Source: Crossaster papposus (taxonomy: Eukaryota; Echinodermata; Asteroidea; Velatida; Solasteridae). Taken from it: 64,000 nt of DNA. The translations under genes and the position numbers were made by a program. The stretch spans positions 186,001 to 250,000 of the forward strand of contig JBAIAA010000409.1 in assembly GCA_037893245.1 (NCBI GenBank), written 5' to 3'. This document shows, one piece after another, positions 8,324-60,523 of the stretch (positions are counted from its first letter, which is position 1; each line of letters starts with the position of its first letter). The notes under the pieces are model-generated. The model was not told the DNA's origin. It saw only the letters and a program-made list of their open reading frames with translations, and made no database searches.

Positions 8324-9268
8324 TCAAACTTGAATGTTGACTGGCTCCACCGACCCTCTGCAACAGAGCCATCTGTTAGTGATGATTTGCTTGGCCTTCT
8401 GACGGTAGGAGCGATTGAACAGACAGTAGATGAAAACATTGCAGACACTGTTGGATACAACGAGCCATACAACTATAAACTGAAGCCAATGTGCAGCCTC
8501 CACATTGGTGAAAGCCTCAACAGTTCTGGTAATCGCAAATGGAGTAAAACAAACTGCAAAAGCCAGAGTGACGACAGCGAACGTCTTGAGAGCTTTGTTG
8601 TCCTGGATGTTGTTTTTGTTGTTGGGATCGTTCTGGTTGGTTCGTTTCTCATGCTCTCGGCTGATCCTAATGATGCGATAGTATATGCACATCATTATTA
8701 ACACTGGAATTACATCAGCAAATAGAAGGAATAAAAAGGTTGATGCTGCGGGGATGTTTGCATATAAACAAACAGCAACATCGTCAACATATTTAAATGA
8801 TACTCCAGGAGAAGTTAATGTTACAAATTGTGAACTCGGAATGACTATTGCTGCCACAATGAGACTGAAAATAATACGTTGTCGGGTGCACCAAATAGAA
8901 AACTTGAAGGGCCTGGTAACGGCAATGTAACGCTCAACATTTAAACAGATGAGGGAAAATACTGACATCAAAATTGCCAAAAACAAAATGGAGGCATGTG
9001 CCTGACAAGTAATGTCTCCGAAAGGCCACCGGTTTATAGCTGAAGCGACAACACTAAACACAGTCGAAAAGCCAACCGTGAGGTCAGACACTGCCAATGA
9101 TGTCATCAAGATCTTAGTACTGTCTGCCAAGTCTGGTACGCGACGAGTCACGACAATGGAGAGAATGTTTCCAGCTACGATTAACAATCCAAGGAAACTG
9201 ATGAAACAAGTACGGAAAGCAACAAATAATGGGGACATTTCCGAAGGGTCTGGTGATGAATCATTCAT
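8324..9268 (-). CDS. Class A (rhodopsin-like) G-protein-coupled receptor, orphan, single exon
   Basis: Intact 314-residue seven-helix receptor of the plasma membrane. The start chosen is the first ATG (MNDSSPDPSE). The open frame runs 20 codons further upstream without an ATG. Family marks by residue: GN in TM1 (N34); LAVSDLTVG in TM2 (D62); C88 at the top of TM3, pairing with C167 in loop 2; ERY at 112-114 in place of DRY; TM5 at about 177-197 with P188; CFTP at 240-243 in place of CWxP; NVFIY at 277-281 in place of NPxxY. N2 is a possible glycosylation site, and C302/C303 after helix 8 are possible palmitoylation sites. The ligand is unknown. Large lineage-specific expansions of such intronless receptors are known in echinoderms, and this fits one (inference). 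It lies antisense within the last XPC intron. The changed NPxxY proline and the missing TM4 tryptophan are unusual but do not disrupt the fold. Confidence 0.85.
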   Translation of the reverse strand: MNDSSPDPSEMSPLFVAFRTCFISFLGLLIVAGNILSIVVTRRVPDLADSTKILMTSLAVSDLTVGFSTVFSVVASAINRWPFGDITCQAHASILFLAILMSVFSLICLNVERYIAVTRPFKFSIWCTRQRIIFSLIVAAIVIPSSQFVTLTSPGVSFKYVDDVAVCLYANIPAASTFLFLLFADVIPVLIMMCIYYRIIRISREHEKRTNQNDPNNKNNIQDNKALKTFAVVTLAFAVCFTPFAITRTVEAFTNVEAAHWLQFIVVWLVVSNSVCNVFIYCLFNRSYRQKAKQIITNRWLCCRGSVEPVNIQV

Positions 9269-9328
9269 TTTGTCCTTATCAAATTCTTTTAACCAAATTA
9301 CACTGAGTTGACGTAAACCTGACTTCAA

Positions 9329-10111
9329 GATGGAGTGGAGTGGAAGCAGTTTATCAAATGGTTGAATAGGTAGCTGGCCAAAAGGAAAATTGTCCTTTCC
9401 ATGGCCTTATATTACAAATTACCAATCTAGGTTTTAAAGTAACCAGCCTGCTATATGCACGCAACTAGCACACAGCCTCCTTCCGTGATAATGCAATCTT
9501 TGTGCCTGGCTAGGTTTTTTGAATGGTCTCGATTTTTGTCAGCACTCAACAATTGCTTAGATAGCGATGGCTGTGTTTAATATGTCATTATTGTATACTA
9601 GGGTTATGTATTGAACTAGGAGTTGAAAAAAGTGAATGCATGTTTGGATATAGGCAGCCATGGCAGTGAATGCATCTTGGTTGTCAGATGTTATTGAAGT
9701 AATGTCTTCTATTGTGTATCTGATGTTTGGATATAGGCAGGCCGTGGTAGTGAATACATTTTTGTTGTCGGATGTTATTGAAGTGGCGTGTTCTATTGTG
9801 CATGACCAGGTTTTCTTGATGGGCGCAGTCTCTATCAACAGGCAGCGATTGATACTCTAATAAATTGGGAGTTGGGAATCATAGATGAGTGATTGCTGTT
9901 TTGTTTGAAGATAGACGCTGGGTCAGTGAATGCATTTCAGTTATTAGATGTAACGGTTATTATTACGGGCCTGCACTGTGTTCTACCTATTATGCGGTGT
10001 TCGCCAGTCTTCATAATGTACTAGTATGTATACAAATGCACATTAGAGCTCTTATATGAATACGGCTTTTTCCTGACCCAAATATCTTTACAAAATCATA
10101 ACTTACAAAGT
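9329..10111. repeat. GPCR upstream region with an 84-bp degenerate tandem repeat
   Basis: Two adjacent units, at about 9642-9725 and 9726-9810, share TTTGGATATAGGCAG...GTGAATGCAT...GATGTTATTGAAGT. A weaker third unit lies near 9896-9955. No gene is seen. The part next to 9268 would hold the receptor's promoter, but I recognise no TATA box. Confidence 0.5.
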
Positions 10112-27253: not shown

Positions 27254-27537
27254 ATGGAAGAATCAGGAGTTGATATGGAGTTTGATCTCAATTTAGATGA
27301 CGACGGGACATTTGATTTGTTTGGGGAAGTAAAACAGAACTTGAGTTTACAACAAGATCAACATGATCTGCAAGGACAAGGTGATATTATCATGTCGATG
27401 ATGTCTTCTGTATCAACCCCTGTACCACTACCAGCAGGAAGTGGGATGCTACATGTAGAACAAGAAGAAGATATGAATCCTGTCAGTGGCCTTACCAATT
27501 CAAACTTTTACGAATTACGAAGCACGCCAGTTGAAAG
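27254..27537 (+). CDS. MITF: MiT/TFE transcription factor (MITF/TFEB/TFE3 orthologue), first coding exon of the long form
   Basis: MiT/TFE proteins are bHLH-leucine-zipper activators of lysosomal, autophagy and pigment-cell genes. This exon starts at an ATG with a purine-rich context (CAAATGG) and an in-frame stop 9 nt upstream. It gives 94 codons plus 2 nt and ends at GAAAG|GTAGGC. EESGVDMEFDLN resembles the vertebrate ESGIVPDFEV start. NFYELRSTPVE near the end matches the vertebrate YYELKSQPL block at the same place in MITF-A and TFE3. The middle is acidic and Q/M-rich (EVKQNLSLQQDQHDL) and lineage-specific. The phase fits the exon at 32195. Vertebrates have MITF, TFEB, TFE3 and TFEC; a single ancestral gene is expected here, so the symbol stands for the family. 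Confidence 0.88.
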
Positions 27538-32194: not shown

Positions 32195-32393
32195 CTCTGC
32201 TTTACAAAAGGAATTTTCACCAGGCGCCATGTGTACAAGAACCAACTTCAAACAGGAACTGATGAGGCAGCATATTCAAGAAATAGAAAAGCATGAACAA
32301 AGACATACTGGTGCGTCACCTATGTTGTCTTCGCCTGCTATAGACCTACCAAAGCTGTCCACGATTCCAGAAGTTCCAACAAACGTTCTGAAG
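32195..32393 (+). CDS. MITF: MITF-like second coding exon, Rag-binding-type region
   Basis: The acceptor is AAAATCTGTAG, chosen because it alone restores phase with the first exon. A nearer CACCAG acceptor at 32222 would shift the frame. The exon has 1 nt plus 66 codons and the donor AAG|GTATGT (phase 0). The split codon gives serine, then SALQKEFSPGAM and CTRTNFKQELMRQHIQEIEK, and it ends IPEVPTNVLK. This matches vertebrate SSSMTSRILLRQQLMREQM...VPMEVLK. In TFEB and long MITF forms this segment binds Rag GTPases and lets mTORC1 hold the factor on lysosomes. LKQQLM-type spacing is kept with conservative changes (FKQELM). An ATG at 32227 aligns with the vertebrate internal methionine and could start a shorter form. 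Confidence 0.9.
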
Positions 32394-34454: not shown

Positions 34455-35982
34455 TTAGTCTTGAGATCCATTTCTTTGATCATTGTTTTGTTCTTTCAAT
34501 AGTTCCAATAGAATTTGCAGATTCTCCTCATCAAGATTTTGTTCCTCTTGGTTGGATTGTGGAGATGCTTTAGTCCTAGATCGAACAAGTTCATCTTTTA
34601 TGTTTTTGTGCCGTTTGTATGCCAGGATGGGTTGGGTATCAAATATCCTATTCAGATATTCGTTTTCGCTAATCAGGGGCCAGTGTTTGAGGGTAGCCCG
34701 TTTGAGGGCTGGGTGCGCGACATGTGGGTAGTATGGTAGGACAAACACCAGTGGGATATTGTTTTTGTTTTTGTCACGCTTAGGGTCCGCGGGAGTCTTG
34801 CCCCTTTGAGAAAGGAGGGCTAGGTCTTCGTTTGTGTATCCGCGCTTTTGAAGTTTGTCTTTGAATAACTCAACCCTCTCCTCAAAGTCTTTTAAATGGG
34901 TACATATACGTTTGTATCTGGTCACTTCGCCCTTGATTAATCCGCCAAATACCGACTTAGGGTGTGCTGAATCTCGAGCTAGGTACTGAAATGTATCAGT
35001 TTTTTTGATAGCGACTCGAGTATCCAATATCCCTTCATGTATAAATCGTTCGCCTTTGTAGATAAGGTCGAGAAAAGTGACTTGGCGGTGCGAGATCTCA
35101 GTGAACTTCAGCGTGGGATGAATTTTATTAAGTGATTGCACTAGGTCAGCAGCCTGCTTTTCATTTCCGTTAAAGATTATAAGAACATCGTCTCTATATC
35201 TCATGTAGCTCACAATTGAGGGATTGTGATGGAGGATGTTGTCTAGTTCGTATTTGAATAGGGTTATGTCACAAATCTCCGGACTGCATTCGCTGCCCAT
35301 GGCCACGCCAATATTTTGTCTGAAAAACTTGCCATTGAATTCAAACGTGTTAATTTCGACGCATAATGAGTTCAAGGAGACTTCGCGCGTGGTCTGTCCT
35401 GGGCTTGGGTATTGCGTATAGTCTGTCGTCGGCCATTGAAAGTGCGTCACAAACTGATTCAATTGCCTCATCTTGTGGGCAGTTAGTGTACATGGATACT
35501 ATATCCAGTGTTATCAATAAGTTATCTTGCTCCAATGTCAGGTTATTTAGCTTTTCAAGCACATGCCCGGAATCGCGTGTGTATCTGCTTTGCTGTTTGA
35601 CAATTGGGAGTAAGAAATAGTCTATGTATTTGGATAAGGATTGAGTCGGTCCTCCGCAACCACTAATGATTGGCCTCCCCACGAACCGTGTTCCTTCTGG
35701 TACTTTTTTGTGAACTTTCGGTAGGAGGTAAAGGCAAGGTGTTTTAATGTCGTGGTTGCGGGTGTTAAGAAACTCAGATATGTCTTTCGATATGAGTCCG
35801 TCCACGTAGAGTTGGCGTATGGCTTGAGAGACTAATTCCGCGGTTTCATCGGTCAGGTCCATGTTAATTTCTTCATAGTGGGGGCCTGTTAATTGTCGTG
35901 TCCCTTCACGTATGTAGTCTTGTTTGTTAAGGACGCACACACTGCGGCCTTTATCGAATTGATGAGTGTATGTTGTGTACAC
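34455..35982 (-). mobile_element. Penelope-like retroelement with RT core
   Basis: Retroelement coding region on the minus strand with a clear Penelope-type reverse transcriptase: LYLLPKVHKKVPEGTRFVGR and RPIISGCGGPTQSLSKYIDY, then LLITLDIVSMYTNCP (first catalytic aspartate), GVAMGSECSPEICD, YRDDVLIIF (catalytic DD) and VTFLDLIYKGERF. The C-terminal region includes FVLPYYPHVAHPALK and YKRHKNIKDELV. It ends in an acidic, coiled-coil-like tail (QNLDEENLQILLELLKEQ) with no GIY-YIG endonuclease following. It is broken in at least one place, and the 5' end is unclear (no good start codon). A homopolymer G run (34408-34434) and T run (34440-34457) lie on its 3' side. It is fairly well preserved, so probably not very old. 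Confidence 0.85.
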
Positions 35983-36849
35983 CCTATGGTATCCATAAGT
36001 GGGGCATATGACACATATTGTTTTCTTCGTTAGGTGATAGTCAATAGGTAAGAGATATAATTACAAGAACATGTGTCGTGGATTTCGAGCTCAAACTGGG
36101 GTTTTTTTTTTGGGGGGAATAGTGTCGTAATCAAAAAGAATGAAACACTAAAGCAATCTCTAAAAAAAAAAAATTATATAATAATTTGTTTTTAAGAGTA
36201 GTGGTAGAAACCGGTGTGTGCAGGCCGATATTAAGAGATATCCTTTGAAGAAGGATAAAAAAGGGGTTTGTGCACGTGTCGGTTGCACCACAATTAACCC
36301 CGTATTTCTTTTGTTTTTTGTTTGCTTTGTATTTAATGGGGGAGGTTCTGCTGAAAAGGGCGCCTTATTAGGATTCCTGATTAAACGTGTGCAACAAGAG
36401 TGCCTTCTTTTTAAGATATTTTTTGTTTTTAATTTTTACCAAAAAAAAGATTGTGTTAAGTAAAGCTGTTGAAAAATAAAACCTTGTTTTTATAATTAAG
36501 GTTATATTGTGTTTCGAGATGTGTGGAGTGGGGAATAGCTATATTCGTTTCTTGTGAGTTTAGGGAATATGGCTACACCAAATATTAATACTGTTTTGGT
36601 CAAGGAAGGGAAACTGAAAAGAAGGTAACATATTGGGTCGAGAGTAAAGAAAGATAATCTCCCCTAGCGATAAGAGAATAACTTTTCCAAACATACGACA
36701 GGAAGGATAAAAACAATTTTTGAATTGGCAAATTGAAGCCCACCTCCAAATTGTAGGTGCAAATAATAAAACAAATATATAAAATTGTACACTGAATCTT
36801 TCTAAATGAATTATTCATCAAATTACTAATAATTATGTTGTAATTAGTC
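35983..36849. other. 5' flank of the Penelope-like element, no gene seen
   Basis: AT-rich with long T and A runs. 36206-36224 carries the GAAACCGGTGTGTGCAGGC word that is also at 33370. Short open frames here have no recognisable homology. Confidence 0.4.
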
Positions 36850-39740: not shown

Positions 39741-40493
39741 AAGCCGGGGAATGACTTGTGGGAAGGATGTTGGCATCTTTGCAATGTTGAGGCACGCACT
39801 TGGCAGCCCAGACTGAGTGGATGAGGGCGTGCAGCCACAGGAGGAGACAATGTCCACTAAACTTTGGCCGGAGTGCGATCAACGCCGGATGCCAATTTCA
39901 AGCCATTGGCCACGATTCAAACTTCTTCAAATTAAGGCGCAACGTCAAGACAGTCGATGACCGGGAACGTAGGGATACATCCGTAGTAGCTTTCAGTTAA
40001 GTAGGTCATTATTGTATTTTTAGAAACTTTTTAGAAACTTTTTAGAAGCTTTTTAGAAACGGTAGGCAAATTACTTGAGAGGGTTGAACGGTAAGAGCCC
40101 AAACGCTATTAAGCTTCAACCAAAAAAATATGTATGCTTTCGGGAGCACTCCCGTTCCAGTGGTCACTCCCGTTCCAGTGGTCACTACATGTAGGCTGAA
40201 CTTATTGGATTTACCTGCAATTGTGATGACAGTGTGATGAGTCAGAGTGCTGTGAGGCTGCACTGCTTTCCATCTGTTCTTGGGAAAAATTTGAATTTTT
40301 CATCGTACATGTAGCTGTTCCTGATGTGGCTGATTTTTAAAAAAGATGGTCATATTACGAGTACACAGGCTGTTTGACTGAATATTGGTGATAAATCTGA
40401 TTACTACATGTGTGTATGTGGTGGATTTTTCTGGGAATATCCATCGCGATTTTGACTCCGGGTGACTCCAGGGATCAGCCAACCGTGACTGCT
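39741..40493. other. Stretch upstream of the LINE, no clear feature
   Basis: 39760-39960 could be further remains of the LINE relic to its left, but I cannot align it. Short direct repeats occur at 40021-40060 (TTTTTAGAAACTTT) and 40145-40185 (CACTCCCGTTCCAGTGGT, twice). Confidence 0.35.
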
Positions 40494-43400
40494 ATGGGCC
40501 TGACCTACACCCCTGGGAAACTGCTTGAACTACGGCCTGACTCTTGTCGTTTACTTGGCCATGCAGCATGGAAATCGGCCTGCGATGCAGGGATAGCGCT
40601 ACGCTATCCTACACGACGGGGTTGCCGTGGAGGTGCACGTAAACAAAGGAAACTCGCTTCACCTATTGTTACTGGACAATCAGAGGTAACCATTGGCACC
40701 ACTCCACTGCGTACCACCATTGGCCCTATACAAAGCCAAATCACAACTCCAGATACTGAAAATGTGAACTTAGCCCTTCTTAACTGCCGATCTGCAAGGA
40801 ATAAAACTGAACTGATAAATGATTTCATTGTAGATAGCAAATCGGATATTCTGGCACTGACAGAAACCTGGTTTACTGGAACTGAAGACGATCAAAAATA
40901 CATCGGTGAAATTTGTCCCAGTGGCTTCACTTTCACACACGTCCCTAGAACCGGCCGGCGTGGTGGGGGTGTTGCTGTCATCTTGCGTAAAAGCTTCAAT
41001 GTGAAACTCTTGAAAACTCAGTGTTTTGCTTCATTTGAGTACATGATTATTAACATTTCCTCGGGCAACAACAACTCTGCAATAACTTTAACTGTACTTT
41101 ACCGACCACCATCGTCCTCTCACAACAACTTCATGACTGAGTTCTCGACGTTGCTTGAGTCCACGGTACTTGAGAACAACTTGGTTGTGGTTGGTGACTT
41201 TAATTTCAAATGGGCACAGAAAGACAGCAGCACCAAAAAGTTAGACGAACTTTTAGACAGTATGGGCTTACTTCAGTGCGTTGAATCACCTACACATACC
41301 AGTGGCCATATTCTTGACTACGTCATAGGGAGAGCCAGTGATGATGTACTTATTTCATCTTCGGTCAAGGTATCTACCTTTATATCTGATCACCGTAGCG
41401 TGGTTTGTGAACTGAAACTAGGTAAACCAAAGCGCTCTTGGAAAGTAGCTACTTACCGTAAATTGAACAAAGTAGATCTTACTGAGTTCACCAGGGACAT
41501 GACCCATCTACTACAAGTTGCACCAGATTCTAAGCTGTCTGCTCAGGTAGAGTGTTATGAAACTACCCTCAGACAACTAATTGACAGACACGCCCCAATA
41601 CAGAGGCGACTACTACCCGTACGTCCCCATAGCCCTTGGTATACGCATGACATCATGGAGGCCAAAAAGCAAAAGCGGATGTACGAAAAGCAGTGGAGGA
41701 AATCTAGTCTTACTGTTCACCGCCAAATGTTTATAGAGCAAAGAAACCTGGTTCTTCGTTTAATTAGAGATGCCCGACGTGCACATTTCAAACAGAAGAT
41801 ATCAGACAATGCAACAAATCCAAGACAACTTTTCGCTGTTGTTGATGGTTTTCTACACAGTAAACCATCACTGTGTCTTCCTGACAGTTCATCTGCATTA
41901 GACCTCGCGGAAAGGTTTAATGTTCACTTCGAAACCAAAGTTACGCACATCAGGTCGGAGCTTGATGGTCAGATATCATCAGTTGCAGTCTCTGTCCATG
42001 ATACTCATTCTACATCGGTACTCCAACTTTTCGAGACGGAATCGGAAGAAACTGTTGGAAAGCTCATCCGCCGCTCACCCTCGAAATCTTGTGACCTCGA
42101 TCCAATACCCACCTCTTTGTTGAAAACATGTCTGTCATCCGTCCTACCTGCAATTACAAATATTGTCAACTCATCCATAGCAACAGGAATCGTGCCTCAG
42201 CAACTCAAAAAGGCGCACGTCACCCCCATCTTAAAGAACTCAAAGCTAGATAAGAACAAGCTGAGTAACTACAGACCTGTGTCGAATCTGCCGTTCATCT
42301 CAAAAGTTGTGGAGAAAGTGGTAGCTGGTCAACTCAATGACTACCTAACATCTAACAACCTGCTTGAGCTGGCACAGTCAGCATCGTAAACACCACAGCA
42401 CCGAGACTACGCTCCTGTGTGTTCAAAATGACATCCTTGGAGCCATTGACAAGAAACTCTCTGTAATTTTAGTGTTACTTGACCTTTCTGCTGCTTTTGA
42501 CACTATCGACCACCAAATCCTCCTTCAACGTCTTCACTACAATTTTGGTATCACTGGAACTGCTTTGAAGTGGTTTACTTCATATCTGGAAAATCGCACC
42601 CAAAATGTAAAAATTGACGGGTCCTTCTCATCCAACACTACACCACGTTTTGGCGTCCCTCAGGGGTCGGTGCTCGGTCCGGTGTTATTTTCCTTGTACT
42701 TTTCACCTGTTGCGAATATTGCTCGTAACCATGGTCTGTCCGTTCAGCTTTACGCGGATGACGCACAACTATATCTGCCATTTGTCTCCACGGACGCAAA
42801 CACTGCAGTTGCCCGTACAGAAGCGTGTGCTGCCGAAGTTAAGGAATGGATGGTCGCAAACAAACTTCAACTCAATAGCGACAAGACTGTCATCTTCTTG
42901 CTGAACTCCCAAAGTCAACATCGCCACAACACCATTCACAGCATCCTGATTGATGGCCATGTCATTCCTTGTAGCAACACAGCTAGAAACCTTGGTGTCA
43001 TCTTCGACAGGCACATGAACTTCACAACCAACGTCAACAACTCCTCCCGCATCGCCATGTACCACTTGAAAAACATAAACCACATCCGCTCATTGCTCTC
43101 TGACAAAACAGCAGAGCAACTCATTCACGCACTTGTAACGTCTCGGCTCGACTACTGCAACTCACTCTTATAGTTATATGGACTTCCAGCTTCCACCTTG
43201 CATCACCTTCAGAGAATCCAGAACATTGCAGCTCGTATCCTAACACACTCAAAAAAGTTTGAGCATATCACCCCGGTTCTTCAAGCATTACACTGGCTCC
43301 CTGTTGAGCAACGCATCATTTTCAAACTCCTTTGTACAACATATATTGTTGTATGACAGAGACTTCATCCCCGTTGTACTTGCAGAGGCTTCTCCTGCCG

Positions 43401-48168: not shown

Positions 48169-49109
48169 AGAAACATGTGGAATATAACAAGCAATTAAAA
48201 AAAATGTTTGAAATGGCTGCTATTGCTTGCTATTCTACTATAGGTTCTATTTATTCATTGAAGGACAAATCAGTGATGGCTCTAAAGCCAAATATATTTG
48301 TCATGACACACTTTGACTGTGTGCCAAATTTCATGCTTGCACAAATTGTATCGGATGCACATTGTACCGGTACAAATGTATGTATCTGCCGTACTAGAGA
48401 CGTCGCGTCTCTTTTACACTTTATTGTACAAACCTCTGCATACATGTAGATCGGTACTACAGACTAACTGACCACAATATGGAAGTACTGGTACGTATTT
48501 ACATTACAAGAGATGCATGTATACTGAAAAATATCGGTACACCCACAGTACTGTTCATGTACGTACATTGCAATGTCCCAACAAATCACACTATACATGT
48601 ACATGTAGGGTACGCCATGTTAAATTGCATGAGATCTACTCTGTGTTATACAAAGTATATGTGTATGTACTTGGTAAACGTGCATAGTGATACATGAATA
48701 TGTAGAAATACTTAAATTGCCTCACAACTGGTTCTGGACATACTGGTAATACTATACTACGGACGCCATGTTCTAACTTGGTGAAATGACCCATAAAGTA
48801 CTGGTAATTCTTAATGTACCGGTTCACAAAAAGAGTTGTGTCCTTGCTAAGAATGCTTTAGACACAGGATATATATTTAAGGGTTGTGGTAATGCTGATA
48901 ATAAGAGTTTGTAGACAGGAAGATGACATCATCCCAATTCTAATTGCTCCCTCCTCAAACTGCGTACATGTACATGTATACTTGCTGTGCTAGTTGGAAA
49001 AGTCGTCACTCCGTCCCAAGATTGCACAGCGCTGGTAGCTTGTGCTGTCTTGATTTCTACTTTTAAATAGTTTTTAACGGCTGGTCCGTTCAAGTGAATT
49101 TCATTAATA
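48169..49109 (+). promoter_or_regulatory. Region upstream of the alternative MITF-like first exon
   Basis: Must contain the promoter if 49110-49202 is a first exon. TTTAAATAG at 49061-49069, about 45 nt before the ATG, is a weak TATA-like candidate. An in-frame TGA at 49095-49097 closes the frame upstream. TACATGTA/GTACATGTAC palindromes are dense at 48550-48610 and 48960-48985. Nothing else is recognised. Confidence 0.35.
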
Positions 49110-49202
49110 ATGTATGGTGGAATAGCAGTTATGCTTCCATACTATGGACAACAGCCTCATCAACAACAACATCTCCATGCACACCATCATCCCTACCATC
49201 AG
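49110..49202 (+). CDS. MITF: MITF-like alternative first coding exon (31 codons)
   Basis: The ATG has an in-frame TGA 15 nt upstream; 31 codons follow, with a consensus donor CATCAG|GTAAGA in phase 0. It encodes MYGGIAVMLPYYGQQPHQ, then a His-rich stretch ending HHPYHQ. Phase 0 joins it to the exon at 56560 (VTTKLENPTRYY). Vertebrate MITF-M arises the same way: an 11-residue first exon ending NHYQ from an internal promoter is spliced to VQTHLENPTKYH. A product starting here would lack both N-terminal exons, including the Rag-binding-type segment, so it should escape lysosomal retention (inference). No transcript evidence is available, and the His/Gln-rich sequence has no outside match I can recall. 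The gene-model logic is strong; the homology to exon 1M is uncertain. Confidence 0.68.
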
Positions 49203-49358
49203 GTAAGAAAGTCCTATCAATCTGATGCCTAGTACAGGAAGGCACAGTTGTTGTTACAAATAAAAACCCATCAAGGATTCATGTGCCCACTCAAGAAATG
49301 TTGTGGACTTCAAAGAATTTGGAGTGGATGAGATTGGTAGAGATATGATGAAGGGAGA

Positions 49359-49767
49359 TTAAAGGTAGGATACACCATTTGCAGATATCAAAAATATTTA
49401 CTACCGAATTATTAAGAAATTATATCTTAGGCTACTCATCTGAAAGAAAATAATGATTCTAGGCATCCAGCAAAACAATTGCGCTAGATATCCTGTAAAT
49501 ATTCCGAAAAATTAAATTTTATAAAGAAAAATTCGCGATCGCCAGGCGGCGATCGCGAAAAAACAAAGATAACATAAGAATAACTGCTCGACGCGGGTTG
49601 AAAACAAACGCTGCTTTTCGTGCTTTCCTCTTCATCCATGATTGTAAAACTTCGGACAGATCAGTTAAACGATATTTATTATAAAATACATGTACAACCC
49701 CCCAAAATCTACCCATTCATGATAATTTAAGCAAAATACCAATGGTGTACTTGTATCATACCTTTAA
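49359..49767. mobile_element. MITE family B, copy 6 (full length)
   Basis: Starts TTAAAGGTAGGATACACCAT and ends ATCATACCTTTAA. It includes the GCGATCGCC/GGCGATCGC centre. It begins 156 bp after the donor of the alternative first exon. Confidence 0.85.
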
Positions 49768-50634
49768 GCAAGACAATTCACTATTGAAGGTGGCATTCAC
49801 TCATTGAGTCGTTCTGATTAGGAGCTATTGGGGATTATGTTAATTTGACATCGATATCAACATTTCAAAATGTCCGATAATCGTAAAAACAAAATTCCCT
49901 GGCCGATTGGTTTTTACTTTGTTTTAAACATTTGCTGCAAGGGAAATGCTCCTCCGTGGCCAAAGTGTGCTTGCGACTGGCATAAAAAACCTGATCAAAA
50001 CGTGAGGCAGAAGCAGATTGTTCCCGTAAAAAATGTATCCCAAGGACTTAAAAGACTGTGTGCATCATAACATTTTAGATTTAGCGGCTAAAGTGCTACC
50101 GCAGTTGTTTGTTATGATTGCTGGTAAATCCTAAGTTATTTCCGTGTATCGTATTTAGTCCGAAGAGACGAAGTATCGTGATTGCTGAGTTGCAGGGGTG
50201 TCTGCCTCACTATTGTCCGCGAATGTGTCTTGAAACAATGATGCAAAAAGTCTTTTCTTGTGTCGCATCCCTGTCCTGTATCGAGATGGATTCACCTTGC
50301 GATATGCGCTGCTCTTCTACATGTATCGAGTCAGCAACCCTTGCTTTGGCAGAAGCACTTAAAAGAAATGGCAGTATCATCCATCCAAGAAACTAGACAT
50401 AAGAAGAAAATCGCGTATGGCAAAATTCTCTTAATACTGACCCATTTTCTCAGCCACCACATGTTTTACCTTGGTTATTTTGGCGCTATCACTGTCTTTT
50501 TATTTAAGAATCCTTTTGATGTACATGTACCTGACGACAGGTGGCATGCCAGACACCGTAATATATTTTTTTCTCCTGAGAATATCTTATTTTTTAAAGA
50601 TTTTTAAAAAAATTGGATAATGCATTCAGTGTTG
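49768..50634. other. MITF-like intron, open frames without homology
   Basis: Frames at 49870-50070 and 50118-50396 are Cys-rich but resemble no family I know and have no consistent splice context. I do not call a gene. Confidence 0.35.
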
Positions 50635-51415
50635 TAGAACTCATACTCGTACTCGTACTCCTCAAGTACAAGTAAGTACTCGGCCCGTACACGCACCTTT
50701 GTAGTCGGACTCGTACCCAAACTTGGCATTTTGTACTCGATACTCAGTGTACTCGATTATACAATATGAAGAATATCTGTTTTTGATACTAACATTTTGA
50801 AACTAAAAATTCTCGTGCACGCTATACATTTACGTACCATTACATTTTTCTTGATTCTCTGATCATCGAGGCTCTGCGATCGTGACTAGGGCACCTGCGA
50901 TTTGCTATCGCTGGTGTACATATTCGACTGCCAAATTCCAATGCATAGACACCAGTGAAGCATGTTGCACAAACCTGCGCACGGGAGACATACCACCAAC
51001 GTGGCTTGCAGGCATCACCACTGATCTCTACAAACCGTGTAAAAGTGAAATTCAAAATGTCTGCGTCACCGAAAATCATAAGCTGGTGTTTACTTGTTTT
51101 AGAAAATTCAATTATTCTTCAACGTGTAAATAAAAATCAAGGAATCAAAGTAAAATTAGCACTCTCCTTAATTCTTCTGTTTGTTTTCTGATATGCAGTG
51201 TATGCATTGAAAAACAAAATCATAAACATTTCGTACTCGTACACAGCCTGTACTGGACTACTTACATGTATGTACTCGTACTCGGCCAATCCTTGGCCCC
51301 TGAAAAACTCGAACTCAGATTTTTGGCCCAGAACTCGATGACAACGTACTCGGACTTGGCCATTACTCGGCACTAAATGAACTTGGAAAACTTGGTGCTC
51401 GGACTTTGGTTAAAG
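50635..51415. repeat. Element bordered by TACTCG-rich ends
   Basis: 50640-50760 and 51220-51410 are both built from TACTCGTACTCG/ACTCGG/CTTGG words in inverted arrangement: 50640 reads outward ACTCATACTCGTACTC and 51260-51285 reads TGTACTCGTACTCGGCC. The inner 460 bp is plain. Probably an inverted-repeat element with simple-repeat ends. Confidence 0.4.
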
Positions 51416-51659
51416 TAATTAACAAAGTTTAGAAAATGTCTCCAAATGTAATATCCATGACGGTGAAATTGCCCGGGGACAATCCTGTGACTTTAGTAAC
51501 GCTACATGTAGCAAAGGTTTCGTTTACAGCAATTTGACATAATTTACACATTTTCACAATTATGTTATTTCTTTGTACAAATTTGAAACAATTTTTTCAC
51601 AGTCAGTCGGGTTACCGGAAACACAACATTGTTTTGTTTTTGCCCTAACAGCTAAACAG

Positions 51660-51945
51660 CATGCCACCACAATCAGCGCATATATATGCACTATGTACCA
51701 TGACGAACCCGGATGATGTAAAAGAGAAGTTCTTATTGATGATTTGTAACAAGTAATCTTCTAGGTTCCCACAAAAGACAAACTCATAATACTCGGCGAC
51801 TTCAATGCTCGTGTTGGCTCTGACCATGATACATGGCATGGCATATATGGAAACATTATTGGGACATGCAATTCAAATTTTCTTCTCCTCATGAAATTTG
51901 CCGAACACAACCTCACCACCAGCAACACTTGTTGTATTAGGTCTG
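51660..51945 (+). mobile_element. RTE-like LINE relic, endonuclease domain
   Basis: ATTISAYICTMYHDE near 51660, then after stops VPTKDKLIILGDFNARVGSD and TWHGIYGNIIGTCNSN, then LLLMKFAEHNLTTSNTCC. This is the central part of an APE endonuclease, with GDFNARVG as the hallmark. At least three stops, no RT part. A family B MITE follows 44 bp later. Confidence 0.8.
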
Positions 51946-51988
51946 GATTTTAAAATAAATTTTCAACTTTATGCCGCAGCTTTGGAAG

Positions 51989-52382
51989 TTAAAGGTAGGA
52001 TACACCATTTGCAGATATCGAAACAGTTTACTACCGAATTATTGGGAAATATCTTACTCATCTGAAAGTAAATAATGATTCTAGGCATCCAGCAAAATGA
52101 TTGCGCTAGAAATCCTTAAATTATTCTGAAAAATATAATTTTATAAAGAAAAATTTGCGATCGCCATCCGGCGATCGAGAAAAAACACAAACAACATAAG
52201 AATAACGTTGAAAACGCCGGTTGAAAACAAACGCTGTTTTTCGTGCTTTTCTCGGCATTCATGGTTGTAAAACTTCGGACAGGTTAGTTAAACGATATTT
52301 ACTATAAAATTCAACCCCCCAAATCCACCCATTCATGGTAATTCAAGTAATTACCAATGGTGTATACTACATGTACCTTTAA
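51989..52382. mobile_element. MITE family B, copy 7 (full length)
   Basis: Starts TTAAAGGTAGGATACACCAT and ends GGTGTATACTACATGTACCT plus TTAA. Closely similar to copy 6, in the same orientation. Confidence 0.85.
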
Positions 52383-54162
52383 TGGTCAAATAAAATATTA
52401 ACCCGTTTATTTATAGTACATGTAATCCCATGTTTATAATTGCTTCTGTTTTTTTATAAATATAAATATAAGCGCCCCAAGCGTTTACAAAGTATGCGAG
52501 TCTAATAAAAGCACAAACTGGAAGTTGAAATGACTCATGCATCACCCAAGTGACTCTATCGGTACATGCATACACGTAATTCCATCTCGGCCTAATGCTG
52601 AAGGTAACACATGTACTGGTACGGTACCGTACATCCCAAAATACAATGTACATGTACCCGGCCTACCCCTATCTGTTTTATGCGAGCTTTATCTTAACTT
52701 TCAGTAATCATTAAGCATGCTCTTTGCAACTTGTGAGCAATTTACTCCACTTCTTAAATATTTATACTATATAAAAATCATAATTCATTCTGGTCAGTTT
52801 AGCAGTTTATACACTTGGTTACCATCAGATGGTGTACAAAATAACAGGAAATATGTAATTGTGAAAGGTTCAGGAGGTCATCGTGTGGTAAAAGTGAATC
52901 ATTTTCTTTTGGCTACTCCCTGGTCATACTTTGTATGTCTGCTTGTTTTAATAAGCTCTTTTCTTTCTAAACTGAGAAACTCGTAGTGAGGATTAACACG
53001 ACACGTTCTACGGTACATGTAGGTCATGTGGACAATATACAATGGAAAGCCGCTATACCGAACACTACTATACCGAACATTCGGCTATATCAAACACCAT
53101 CCTTGGATGGCAATTTTCGTCTAAAAAAATACTGAACACTTGTTGAAAAAATATCAACGAATTACATTGCATATATTGATCGTCCTTGGCCCCCGATGTG
53201 TCCAAACATATTAAAAATTGGTGTTAAAAATATGTCACAAGAATTTCAAAATCCACTGGGTATGTCAAAACCGCTATTAAGGCCGTTTGTAAATTTTCCC
53301 GAATGTCAATCGGCCAGTGTTTTTGTTAAGACAGGTGGCTATTATTAGCCCAATGAATGGAAGGGAAAGCCAACCATTGCTTTAGAATTTGGGTGATGAA
53401 TAAGCTTAGAAACTTGTAATTGGGTGTGTCCATGAAGTTGGGGCACAAAGTATGACATACATTTTGTAATAGTCAAAATCACTGAATTGTTAATCTTATT
53501 ATATTAGTTTTAGTTAGTGCAACTATCATACTTGTGAAAATAATAAACTTGTTTTTAAACATAAGTTTAAATGAAATCAGTGACTTCAGCATATTTTCAG
53601 GTCATCAATCATAAAAATACGAACATACATGATACATGGACACCATCCTAATAGGTTTCTCCTTTATGATTTAAAAAAAATAGTTCATGTTATTTTTTAT
53701 TTGTGACGTACTTTTTAGGACAAATTAACACAAAAACACCAACAATACTATTTTAAAAAATCGGAGAAAAATAAAATGAGCCATTGAAAATTAAGTATTT
53801 TAGGTAAATGTACAAAATGTAACTTGCAAGATGATGTGGTATGTATACAATTAATTAGGATTATATATTAAAAGTAAAGTAACAAAAGTTTTGGGATATT
53901 TATGTCTTCATTATTGCTTAACCTTTGCAGAAAATGCAAGAAAAGTAAAATCTAATTGCCTTTGCTGCTGAAAAATATTTCTGAGAAATATGGCAATTTT
54001 ACCTACACTACATAGACACCTTGACACATAGACACCTTGACAGGTATAAATATTATCAATTAACTAATATAATGTGTGGTAAGACAATCACTGAATTCTA
54101 GTCTGTCTATTGGCATTCAAATGAATATTACAAAATTAACATTGATACTACATTTTGTAAAT
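52383..54162. other. MITF-like intron, AT-rich, no gene seen
   Basis: A GCCGCTATACCGAACACTAC block at 53050-53090, with CCGAACA repeated, resembles the ends of pogo/Tigger-type MITEs, but I find no matching right end. The rest, to 54162, is AT-rich with no coding or repeat signal I can support. Confidence 0.4.
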
Positions 54163-54917: not shown

Positions 54918-55281
54918 TGCAGATTGAGGGTACAGATTGAGGGTGCAGATTGAGGGTGCAGATTGAGGGTGCAGATTGTGGGTGCAGATTGAGGGTGCAG
55001 ATTGAGGGTGCAGATTGAGGGTGCAGATTGAGGGTGCAGATTGTGGGTGCAGATTGTGGGTGCAGATTGAGGGTGCAGATTGTGGGTGCAGATTGTGGGT
55101 GCAGATTGAGGGTGCAGATTGAGGGTGCAGATTGTGGGTGCAGATTGTGGGTGCAGATTGTGGGTGCAGATTGAGGGTGCAGATTGTGGGTGCAGATTGA
55201 GGGTGCAGATTGAGGGTGCAGATTGAGGGTGCAGATTGAGGGTGCAGATTGTGGGTACAGATTGTGGGTACAGATTGTGGG
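54918..55281. repeat. 13-bp minisatellite, 28 units
   Basis: 28 head-to-tail units of TGCAGATTGAGGG in two main variants (GATTGAGGG and GATTGTGGG), interspersed; three units start TACAG, one near the left end and two at the right. Frames on the minus strand remain open and give a 13-residue periodic peptide, but this is a by-product of the period and not a gene. Confidence 0.9.
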
Positions 55282-55388
55282 TACAGAGTTGTAATCGAGT
55301 CATTCACAAGTCAGTTTACAAGTCAATTCACAAGTCATTTTATAAGCATAAAGAGGAACAATAAAGGAATGCTTTTGTCAAAGTTCAT

Positions 55389-56493: not shown

Positions 56494-56559
56494 GCCTTGT
56501 GCAACAACATGTTACAAGCATGTATAAAAGTTTGTTTTCTTGTCTGTCAATGTTTTTAG

Positions 56560-56766
56560 GTGACCACGAAGCTTGAGAACCCTACAAGATATTACATACA
56601 ACAATCTCAAAAACGGCAAGTGGAGCAGTATCTCTCTGCCTCTGCATCGCAAACAAGGATGTCTCCTCACTTATTAAACCCAAGCCCATTGTCCAACTCA
56701 CCGTCACGTAAGCAGAATGGCTCAGTCTCCAGTCTACCGAACAGCCCTATGTCAACAACTCAAGAG
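56560..56766 (+). CDS. MITF: MITF-like shared exon with the LENPTRYY block and PNSP site
   Basis: The acceptor is CAATGTTTTTAG and the donor CAAGAG|GTGAGT, 69 codons, phase 0 on both sides. It encodes VTTKLENPTRYYIQQSQKRQ, then VEQYLSASAS, and ends SSLPNSPMSTTQE. Vertebrate MiT proteins have [21 protein letters not shown] and SAPNSPMAML here. PNSP is the ERK-phosphorylated serine of MITF (S73 of the M form), and it is kept. The exon can be joined by either upstream start: from 32393 (long form) or 49202 (alternative form), both phase 0. Middle residues (MSPHLLNPSPLSNSPSRKQN) are Ser/Pro-rich with two more SP sites. Confidence 0.92.
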
Positions 56767-57378
56767 GTGAGTTCAGAAGCTTTTAATTTAAATACGTAAC
56801 AAGCAAGGTTCTAAGTCTAACAAATCATATCATTTTGTGTAAACTACCGTTATCTCTCTACAGTAGTACAACTACTAATGTATTACTATCATTGAAGTTT
56901 ATTTCCTGCGTTTGAACACAATATACCGGTAAATTAGAGCTACTAGTAATCGTGATGTGCAATTGTATCAATTAGTGTGGACAGACCCGTAGCCAAACTT
57001 AAAAATGGGGTTTTAAGTTTCATTATGTGTGTACGAACCTTGCTATCCTTGTGTGGACTTGGTAACAAAAGATGTCCACACTTTACACAAACCTAAAACC
57101 TTTTGTGGACTTGGCCAAGTCCACACAAGGTTTCCCAAGAAAAATTGAAGAGGATTATCATAGGGTATAACAGTTACAAATGTGGATTGAAAACAACTTC
57201 ACGATGTAAGAAATATTAGTATTTGGTGAAATTCGATCGATGGTTCTTAACTACACAAATACAAAGGAGGATCCACACAGTGATAGTAAGGTTCGTACAT
57301 GTATAATTGGATTTATCTTGTTTGTGTACATGTGCATTAATGCAAAAATGTTTCAATATTTATATTTCTTTGCTAAAG
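56767..57378. other. MITF-like intron, no exon found
   Basis: In vertebrate MITF an extra exon (GFYKFEEQ...) lies between the PNSP exon and the DDVID exon. I see no counterpart here. GTGGACTTGG/GTCCACAC words repeat in both orientations at 57045-57130. Confidence 0.4.
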
Positions 57379-57477
57379 GTGGACGACATTTTAGACGAAG
57401 TGATAAGTTTGGAATCAAGTTTAGGGGAGGATGCTCTGACTCAGTACTTTCAAGAGCCTGTTATGATGCCATCAACG
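57379..57477 (+). CDS. MITF: MITF-like activation-helix exon
   Basis: The acceptor is TTTGCTAAAG and the donor TCAACG|GTAAGA, 33 codons, phase 0. It encodes VDDILDEVISLESSLGEDAL and TQYFQEPVMMPST. Vertebrate MITF has [20 protein letters not shown] at this point. This amphipathic acidic segment is the p300/CBP-binding activation domain. The DDxxDxxxSLESS core is fully kept. The exon follows directly in phase from QE at 56766, as in TFEB, where the two blocks are adjacent. Confidence 0.93.
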
Positions 57478-57554
57478 GTAAGAAGTACATGTACACAATA
57501 ACTTTACTTCTAAATTGAGTCAGTGTCTTTAGTTTATTTTATTCATTCAACACC

Positions 57555-59452: not shown

Positions 59453-59633
59453 ATGCCGGTACACACGTACCTAGAGCAGTTGAGCCCTAATGGGGGTATG
59501 ACACCAGTAGCAGTTCCTACCCAGTCTGTCTCTTGTCCTGCTGACCTCAACCAAATTAAACAAGAACCACTTTTAGAAGATCATGTTCGGGCATTTGCTA
59601 AAGAAAGGCAGAAGAAAGACAACCACAATATGA
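59453..59633 (+). CDS. MITF: MITF-like exon leading into the basic region
   Basis: The acceptor is TACTGTATTAATAAG and the donor AATATGA|GTAAGT, 60 codons plus 1 nt. It encodes MPVHTYLEQLSPNG..., SVSCPADLNQIKQEPLLEDH and AFAKERQKKDNHNM. CPADL is as in TFEB. IKQE is a SUMO-acceptor motif at the place of the MITF IKRE site. AKERQKKDNHN is the invariant start of the MiT basic region. The split codon A|TT gives isoleucine into the next exon. The upstream acceptor lies 59 bp after the duplicated segment that ends at 59393. Confidence 0.93.
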
Positions 59634-60447: not shown

Positions 60448-60523
60448 TTGAGCGAAGAAGACGTTTCAATATCAATGACCGTATTAAAGAGCTTGGAACC
60501 ATCATTCCAAAGAACCTAGACCC
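60448..60523 (+). CDS. MITF: MITF-like bHLH exon (basic region and helix 1)
   Basis: The acceptor is CATCAAAATGCAG and the donor GACCC|GTAAGT. It has 2 nt completing isoleucine, 24 codons and 2 nt. It encodes [20 protein letters not shown] followed by PKNLDP, essentially identical to vertebrate MiT proteins ([22 protein letters not shown]). The E and R residues that contact CACGTG and the flanking T are all present. The next exon (loop, helix 2, zipper: MRWNKGTIL in vertebrates) was not found before the right edge; the intervening DNA is a DIRS-type fossil. Confidence 0.95.

Follow-up and report, generated by a model that had tools for sequence, protein, structure and literature searches.

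A candidate alternative first exon in the MITF-like gene of the sea star Crossaster papposus

In other animals MITF controls genes for pigment and for lysosomes, and in vertebrates MITF-M is known as a melanocyte form. The window analyzed here, a stretch of 64,000 nucleotides that forms part of contig C409 in the 1.02-Gb assembly of C. papposus, covers much of a MITF-like gene. Profile searches with PF15951 and PF11851 found a single MITF/TFE-like gene in the assembly, present as two haplotypes, one on C409 and one on contig C236; the sole other PF15951 match, on contig C72, was below the cut-off (E 6.78). The joined exons A, B, and LENP (Table 1) cover positions 1–136 of PF15951 with an E value of 1.5e-24 and 87.6 bits (cut-off 27), placing the gene in the MiT/TFE family. 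Matches above cut-off were also obtained with the bHLH profile PF00010 (60438–60512, equivalent to C409:246438–246512; 31.1 bits) and with the C-terminal profile PF11851 (C409:254936–255241; 28.4 bits). PF00010 has 40 matches genome-wide, and the one examined is that of the MITF-like gene.

The exon model comprises two N-terminal exons and a series of exons that the forms discussed below would share. Near the end of exon A lies YELRSTP, a vertebrate-like motif, and SVSCPADL in one of the shared exons is presumably the context of TFEB Ser211. Exon B contains an ATG at 32229, ends with ...EVPTNVLK in phase 0, and scores 26.6 bits against PF15951 when taken by itself and 27 with its neighbours. 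It is separated from the LENP exon by an intron of 24,166 bp, and further exons start beyond the window, at 65952 and 68888 in the same numbering. Upstream of the gene, the reverse strand encodes a rhodopsin-class GPCR in a single frame of 359 codons (8327–9403; PF00001, E 8.2e-37).

Table 1. Features of the MITF-like gene and of the candidate exon region (window coordinates; splice scores in bits)
Feature	Position	Strand	Basis or remark
Exon A, first coding exon found for the long form (MEESGVDMEF...STPVE)	27254..27537	+	From ATG; ends in phase 2
Exon B, second N-terminal exon; MCTRTNFKQELMRQ is the counterpart of the TFEB Rag-clamping helix	32195..32393	+	PF15951
Possible acceptor AG; internal exon 49071-49202 with in-frame TGA	49069..49070	+	4.43, a score reached by 17% of the 1220 AGs in the intron
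In-frame TGA 5' of the candidate ATG	49095..49097	+	Frame 0 stops within 49040-49260: 49068, 49095, 49230
Coding part (31 codons) of the candidate alternative first exon: MYGGIAVMLPYYGQQPHQQQHLHAHHHPYHQ	49110..49202	+	ATG at 49110
CAN-rich His/Gln tract, stop-free in three frames	49152..49202	+	Frame scan
Possible acceptor AG; 48-nt symmetric stop-free exon 49155-49202	49153..49154	+	3.94, against 3.74-8.81 at 7 gene-model acceptors
Splice donor GTAAGA, strong	49203..49208	+	CAG/GTAAGA, 11.2 bits
Shared LENP exon, VTTKLENPTRYY...TTQE, corresponding to vertebrate exon 2	56560..56766	+	Phase 0 at both ends; PF15951 at 56554-56778
Shared exon with VDDILDEVISLESS	57379..57480	+	Starts at 57379; 3' end provisional
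Shared exon with SVSCPADL and the beginning of the basic region	59453..59633	+	Gene model; acceptor scored
Shared bHLH exon	60448..60523	+	PF00010

A sequence-only reading of the window had proposed an alternative first exon in the intron between the Rag-helix exon B and the LENP exon. The features on which it drew, namely a 31-codon ATG-led open reading frame, an upstream stop, a donor, phase 0, and the placement before the LENP exon, are all found where it had put them. Spliced at its donor, the candidate exon would join VTTKLENPTRYY at 56560 in frame and in phase 0. The donor after 49202 scores 11.2 bits, compared with 9.07, 9.19, and 11.69 at three other scored donors of the gene, using matrices of approximate metazoan frequencies rather than ones trained on this genome.

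Such an arrangement could also arise by chance: in an intron of this length, a CAN-rich open stretch may by coincidence stand behind an ATG and run up to a good donor that is not used. We consider this quite possible, if short of an even bet. None of the three frames has a stop within the His/Gln tract (frame 1 is open from 49126 to 49203, frame 2 from 49067 to 49222), so that the openness of much of the candidate frame is little evidence for coding. The 31-residue peptide has no Pfam match, its one match elsewhere in the genome is weak (E 0.128), and it lacks likeness to vertebrate exon 1M (see below), all of which fits an accidental origin. On the other hand, the candidate is the single strongest of its intron and its donor is close to consensus: it is the only open reading frame of at least 15 codons with a donor this good on the plus strand of the intron, and the minus strand has none with an equally good donor. 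Dinucleotide shuffles of the intron (n = 200) yield an equal candidate at low frequency, 3.5% of them with at least 31 codons, 8% with at least 24, and 13.5% with at least 15.

We compared these rates with a control pool of 324,796 bases, made up of both strands of 16 loci and of 8 arbitrarily chosen stretches, together with the minus strand of the window. Four loci of contig C8, which is probably bacterial, were excluded (29,628 bases, 0 hits). The pool gave 4 hits of at least 11 codons and 2 of at least 31 codons, that is 0.30 and 0.15 per 24.2 kb; like the shuffle figures, these flatter the candidate, whose own score served as the threshold. The 16 loci (100,796 bases), a non-random sample drawn by HLH, PF15951, and repeat matches, contributed one hit of at least 11 codons and none of at least 31; the 8 stretches (160,000 bases) contributed two of at least 11 codons, one of which reached at least 31; and the minus strand of the window (64,000 bases) contributed one of at least 31 codons, or 0.38 per intron. 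One control hit, of 54 codons in locus L045, looks like a signal-peptide exon, and hits of the candidate's class are therefore a mixture of probable true exons and noise. With the donor limit lowered to 9 bits the controls hold 1.56 candidates of at least 11 codons per intron, against 1 in the MITF intron, which is therefore not rich in candidates. Three hits of the candidate's strength occur in the window when both strands are counted, namely the LENP exon, which is a true exon, the candidate, and a hit at 809–910 on the minus strand. This last is an ATG-led frame of 34 codons with a very strong donor (12.67 bits) and may be the first exon of another gene. Alone of its strength in the intron but set against these shuffle and control rates, the candidate suggests a first exon at 49110–49202 rather than proving one.

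A further alternative is that the donor at 49202 serves an internal exon beginning after an acceptor at 49154 or 49070, which we regard as unlikely. With the acceptor at 49154 the result would be a 48-nt cassette in phase 0 at both ends, by which the Rag-binding form would gain PHQQQHLHAHHHPYHQ, 16 residues rich in His and Gln; being in frame and stop-free, this cassette would lengthen the protein, not shorten it. The acceptor at 49070 would instead define either a 132-nt poison exon or a start-bearing second exon that follows an untranslated first exon elsewhere. Both acceptor scores (3.94 and 4.43) are comparable to those of exons B, e5, and e6 (3.82, 3.74, and 4.95), but three of the gene's acceptors reach 8 or more, the share of intron AGs that score at least as well as the acceptor at 49070 is 17%, the one at 49154 scores lower still, and the pyrimidine tract before 49154 is weak. 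On the plus strand of the intron, no open phase-0 cassette other than 49155–49202 combines a donor of at least 9 bits with an acceptor of at least 3.7, although one such cassette also occurs on the reverse strand when the donor limit is 9 bits, but not when it is 11.2.

The region 5' of the candidate bears on whether it has a promoter of its own, as the earlier reading had assumed. We found no clear core promoter there, with a weak TTTAAATA at 49062 and no good TATA box, and no CpG signal (CpG o/e 0.60, compared with 0.79 for the intron). A separate promoter thus gained no support, the motif being weak, the CpG ratio lying below that of the intron, and internal exons with acceptors at 49070 or 49154 being allowed.

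In vertebrates, exon 1M sits between exon 1B1b and exon 2, and its peptide is MLEMLEYNHYQ. The candidate had been described as ending "just as" exon 1M does, a likeness that did not hold up: aligned in the register of the junction, 2 of the 11 residues are identical to this peptide, the local alignment score is 15 compared with a shuffle mean of 18.35, and 94% of 2000 peptide shuffles score as high or higher. The terminal Q common to the two is dictated by a CAG/GT donor in phase 0. We therefore rejected homology to exon 1M, since the peptide likeness is no better than that of shuffles. The remaining alternative, an ancestral exon homologous to exon 1M whose internal promoter would be older than the vertebrates, has the same intron and phase and a short ATG-bearing exon in its favor but fails this peptide comparison, and we judge it extremely improbable, the shared intron being weak evidence of ancestry because a first exon that skips exon B falls most naturally there. 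The proposal of an ancestral internal promoter or exon lost its support with the failed homology test, and as far as sequence can tell the candidate arose independently of exon 1M.

The likeness to MITF-M thus has to be read as one of arrangement. According to PMC7470386, MITF-M likewise has a short first exon that is spliced directly to exon 2 and skips the Rag-binding exon 1B1b. The candidate, too, lies between the Rag-helix exon and the counterpart of exon 2 and has the potential for an in-frame join; it differs in length, with 31 codons against 11 in the vertebrate exon, and the two peptides are unrelated by the shuffle test. The parallel with MITF-M that had been drawn stands in part, as an analogy in position, phase, and consequence, and falls as a statement of homology.

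We favor, with a probability of roughly 40%, the interpretation that the MITF-like gene has a lineage-specific alternative first exon whose coding part is 49110–49202; the odds across the four readings are a matter of judgement. Transcription would start a short distance 5' of the candidate and translation at 49110 or at 49131, and the donor at 49202 would be spliced in frame to 56560. The product would lack the acidic N-terminus encoded by exon A and the Rag-clamping first helix encoded by exon B, and would retain the LENP helix, the downstream phosphosite contexts, and the bHLH-zipper. Consistent with this, the predicted short product matches PF15951 from profile position 60, whereas the long form matches from position 1.

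What such a form would lose depends on how the long form contacts the Rag GTPases. The joined exons A, B, and LENP match the TFEB chain of structures 7ux2, 7uxc, and 7uxh in a phmmer search (E 6.6e-08), with the first helix out of register. In the Pfam alignment of the joined exons, profile position 1 of PF15951 corresponds to R110, within exon B. The first helix of TFEB contacts the Rags through R4, I5, L7, R8, M9, L11, R13, and Q15 (PMC9931586). Counting the Met of exon B as residue 1, the residues at these eight positions are R, T, F, K, Q, L, R, and H, three of them identical and two similar. As the first-helix contacts are kept only in part, binding of the long form to the Rags is likely but less than certain. 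TFEB residues 76–83 also touch RagA (PMC9931586), and in the aligned TFEB chain LENP begins with Leu76. This second contact is encoded by the shared LENP exon and would be retained by the short form, which would accordingly be without the RagC clamp and the loop but not without all Rag contact. The earlier statement that the candidate skips the Rag-binding region is hence accurate for the first helix and the loop and too broad for the contact corresponding to TFEB 76–83, which is kept. Its more specific part is borne out conditionally: if transcription starts at the candidate, exon B with the Rag-clamping helix is lost and everything from VTTKLENP onward is kept.

By analogy with MITF-M and with TFEB helix mutants, the short form would be expected to be mostly nuclear and less controlled by nutrients. 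MITF-M is constitutively nuclear, which has been attributed to the absence of a 30-residue domain, encoded by exon 1B1b, through which active Rags are engaged, and Torin-1 still lowers its cytoplasmic part (PMC7470386). The TFEB mutants I5D, L7D/R8D, and M9D are also constitutively nuclear (PMC9931586). The broader proposal, that an echinoderm has convergently evolved, in the same intron, a MITF first exon that removes the Rag clamp and yields a nutrient-insensitive form, perhaps for use in pigment or skeletogenic cells, is in our view doubtful. If true, it would show that dropping the Rag helix is a regulatory switch able to evolve more than once, and it would make the split between nutrient-responsive and constitutive MITF testable outside vertebrates.

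Several other MiT/TFE systems offer partial comparisons. Human TFE3-L and TFE3-S are likewise MiT/TFE isoforms that arise from alternative transcription starts, but TFE3-S loses a degron and still binds active Rags, whereas the candidate form would lose the first Rag helix (PMC12852735). M-like and A-like forms coexist in zebrafish as Mitfa and Mitfb, which are the products of two genes (PMC9363479), compared with the one MITF-like gene found here. The sea urchin Pl-Mitf is an echinoderm MITF orthologue reported from pigment cells and skeletogenic precursors, and the available sections of the same paper do not mention an alternative first exon for it (PMC9363479). For a sea cucumber MITF, the text of PMC9854957 does not contain the terms isoform, alternative, N-terminal, RACE, MITF1, or MITF2. 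Among the matches listed from the openly licensed literature, none described an invertebrate with an M-like first exon.

The second haplotype and the surrounding repeats were also compared with the candidate region. C236 is 98.7% identical to the window over 49176–53622, and its bases corresponding to 49176–49247, which include 27 bases of the candidate exon and the donor, are identical to the window. The comparison of alleles within the exon is limited to these 27 bases because the C236 contig (locus L020) begins inside the candidate exon, at window position 49176, and it therefore lacks the power to reveal selective constraint. The 44 matches listed, with 40 of 1309 candidates scored, included neither a second allele of 48357–49175 nor a copy of 48357–49240; apart from C409 itself and the end of C236, the listed matches all lie in a dispersed repeat at 48184–48356. 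A search with 195 bases around the candidate found no copies besides the allele; this and the listed matches to 48357–49240 make a transposon reading frame unlikely. The repeat-free island around the exon was discarded as a signal, since its 1,009 bp rank sixth in the intron by BLAST against the fetched DNA, a comparison that understates repeats.

Elsewhere in the same MITF intron, a 13-bp minisatellite spans 54918–55287 with 28.5 copies, and the array measures about 1.3 kb in C236 compared with 0.37 kb in the window, a large allelic length difference. The intron also carries two retroelement remnants. One, on the minus strand (34458–36060), has a weak reverse-transcriptase match below the Pfam cut-off, and its assignment as Penelope-like is a guess; the other, on the plus strand (40401–43173), is a LINE remnant whose endonuclease and reverse-transcriptase segments lie in different frames.

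Two observations concern the assembly as a whole. On the mitochondrial contig C1841 (16,330 bp) COX1 has 13 in-frame TGA codons and becomes an open frame of 517 codons under the echinoderm code (AAA=N, AGR=S, TGA=W), with which conserved positions come right. Relative to COX1, the frames taken to be ND1 and ND2 are on the other strand, an order typical of sea stars. Contig C8, more than 5.2 Mb long, carries COX1-family genes without TGA codons at loci L021, L023, and L024.
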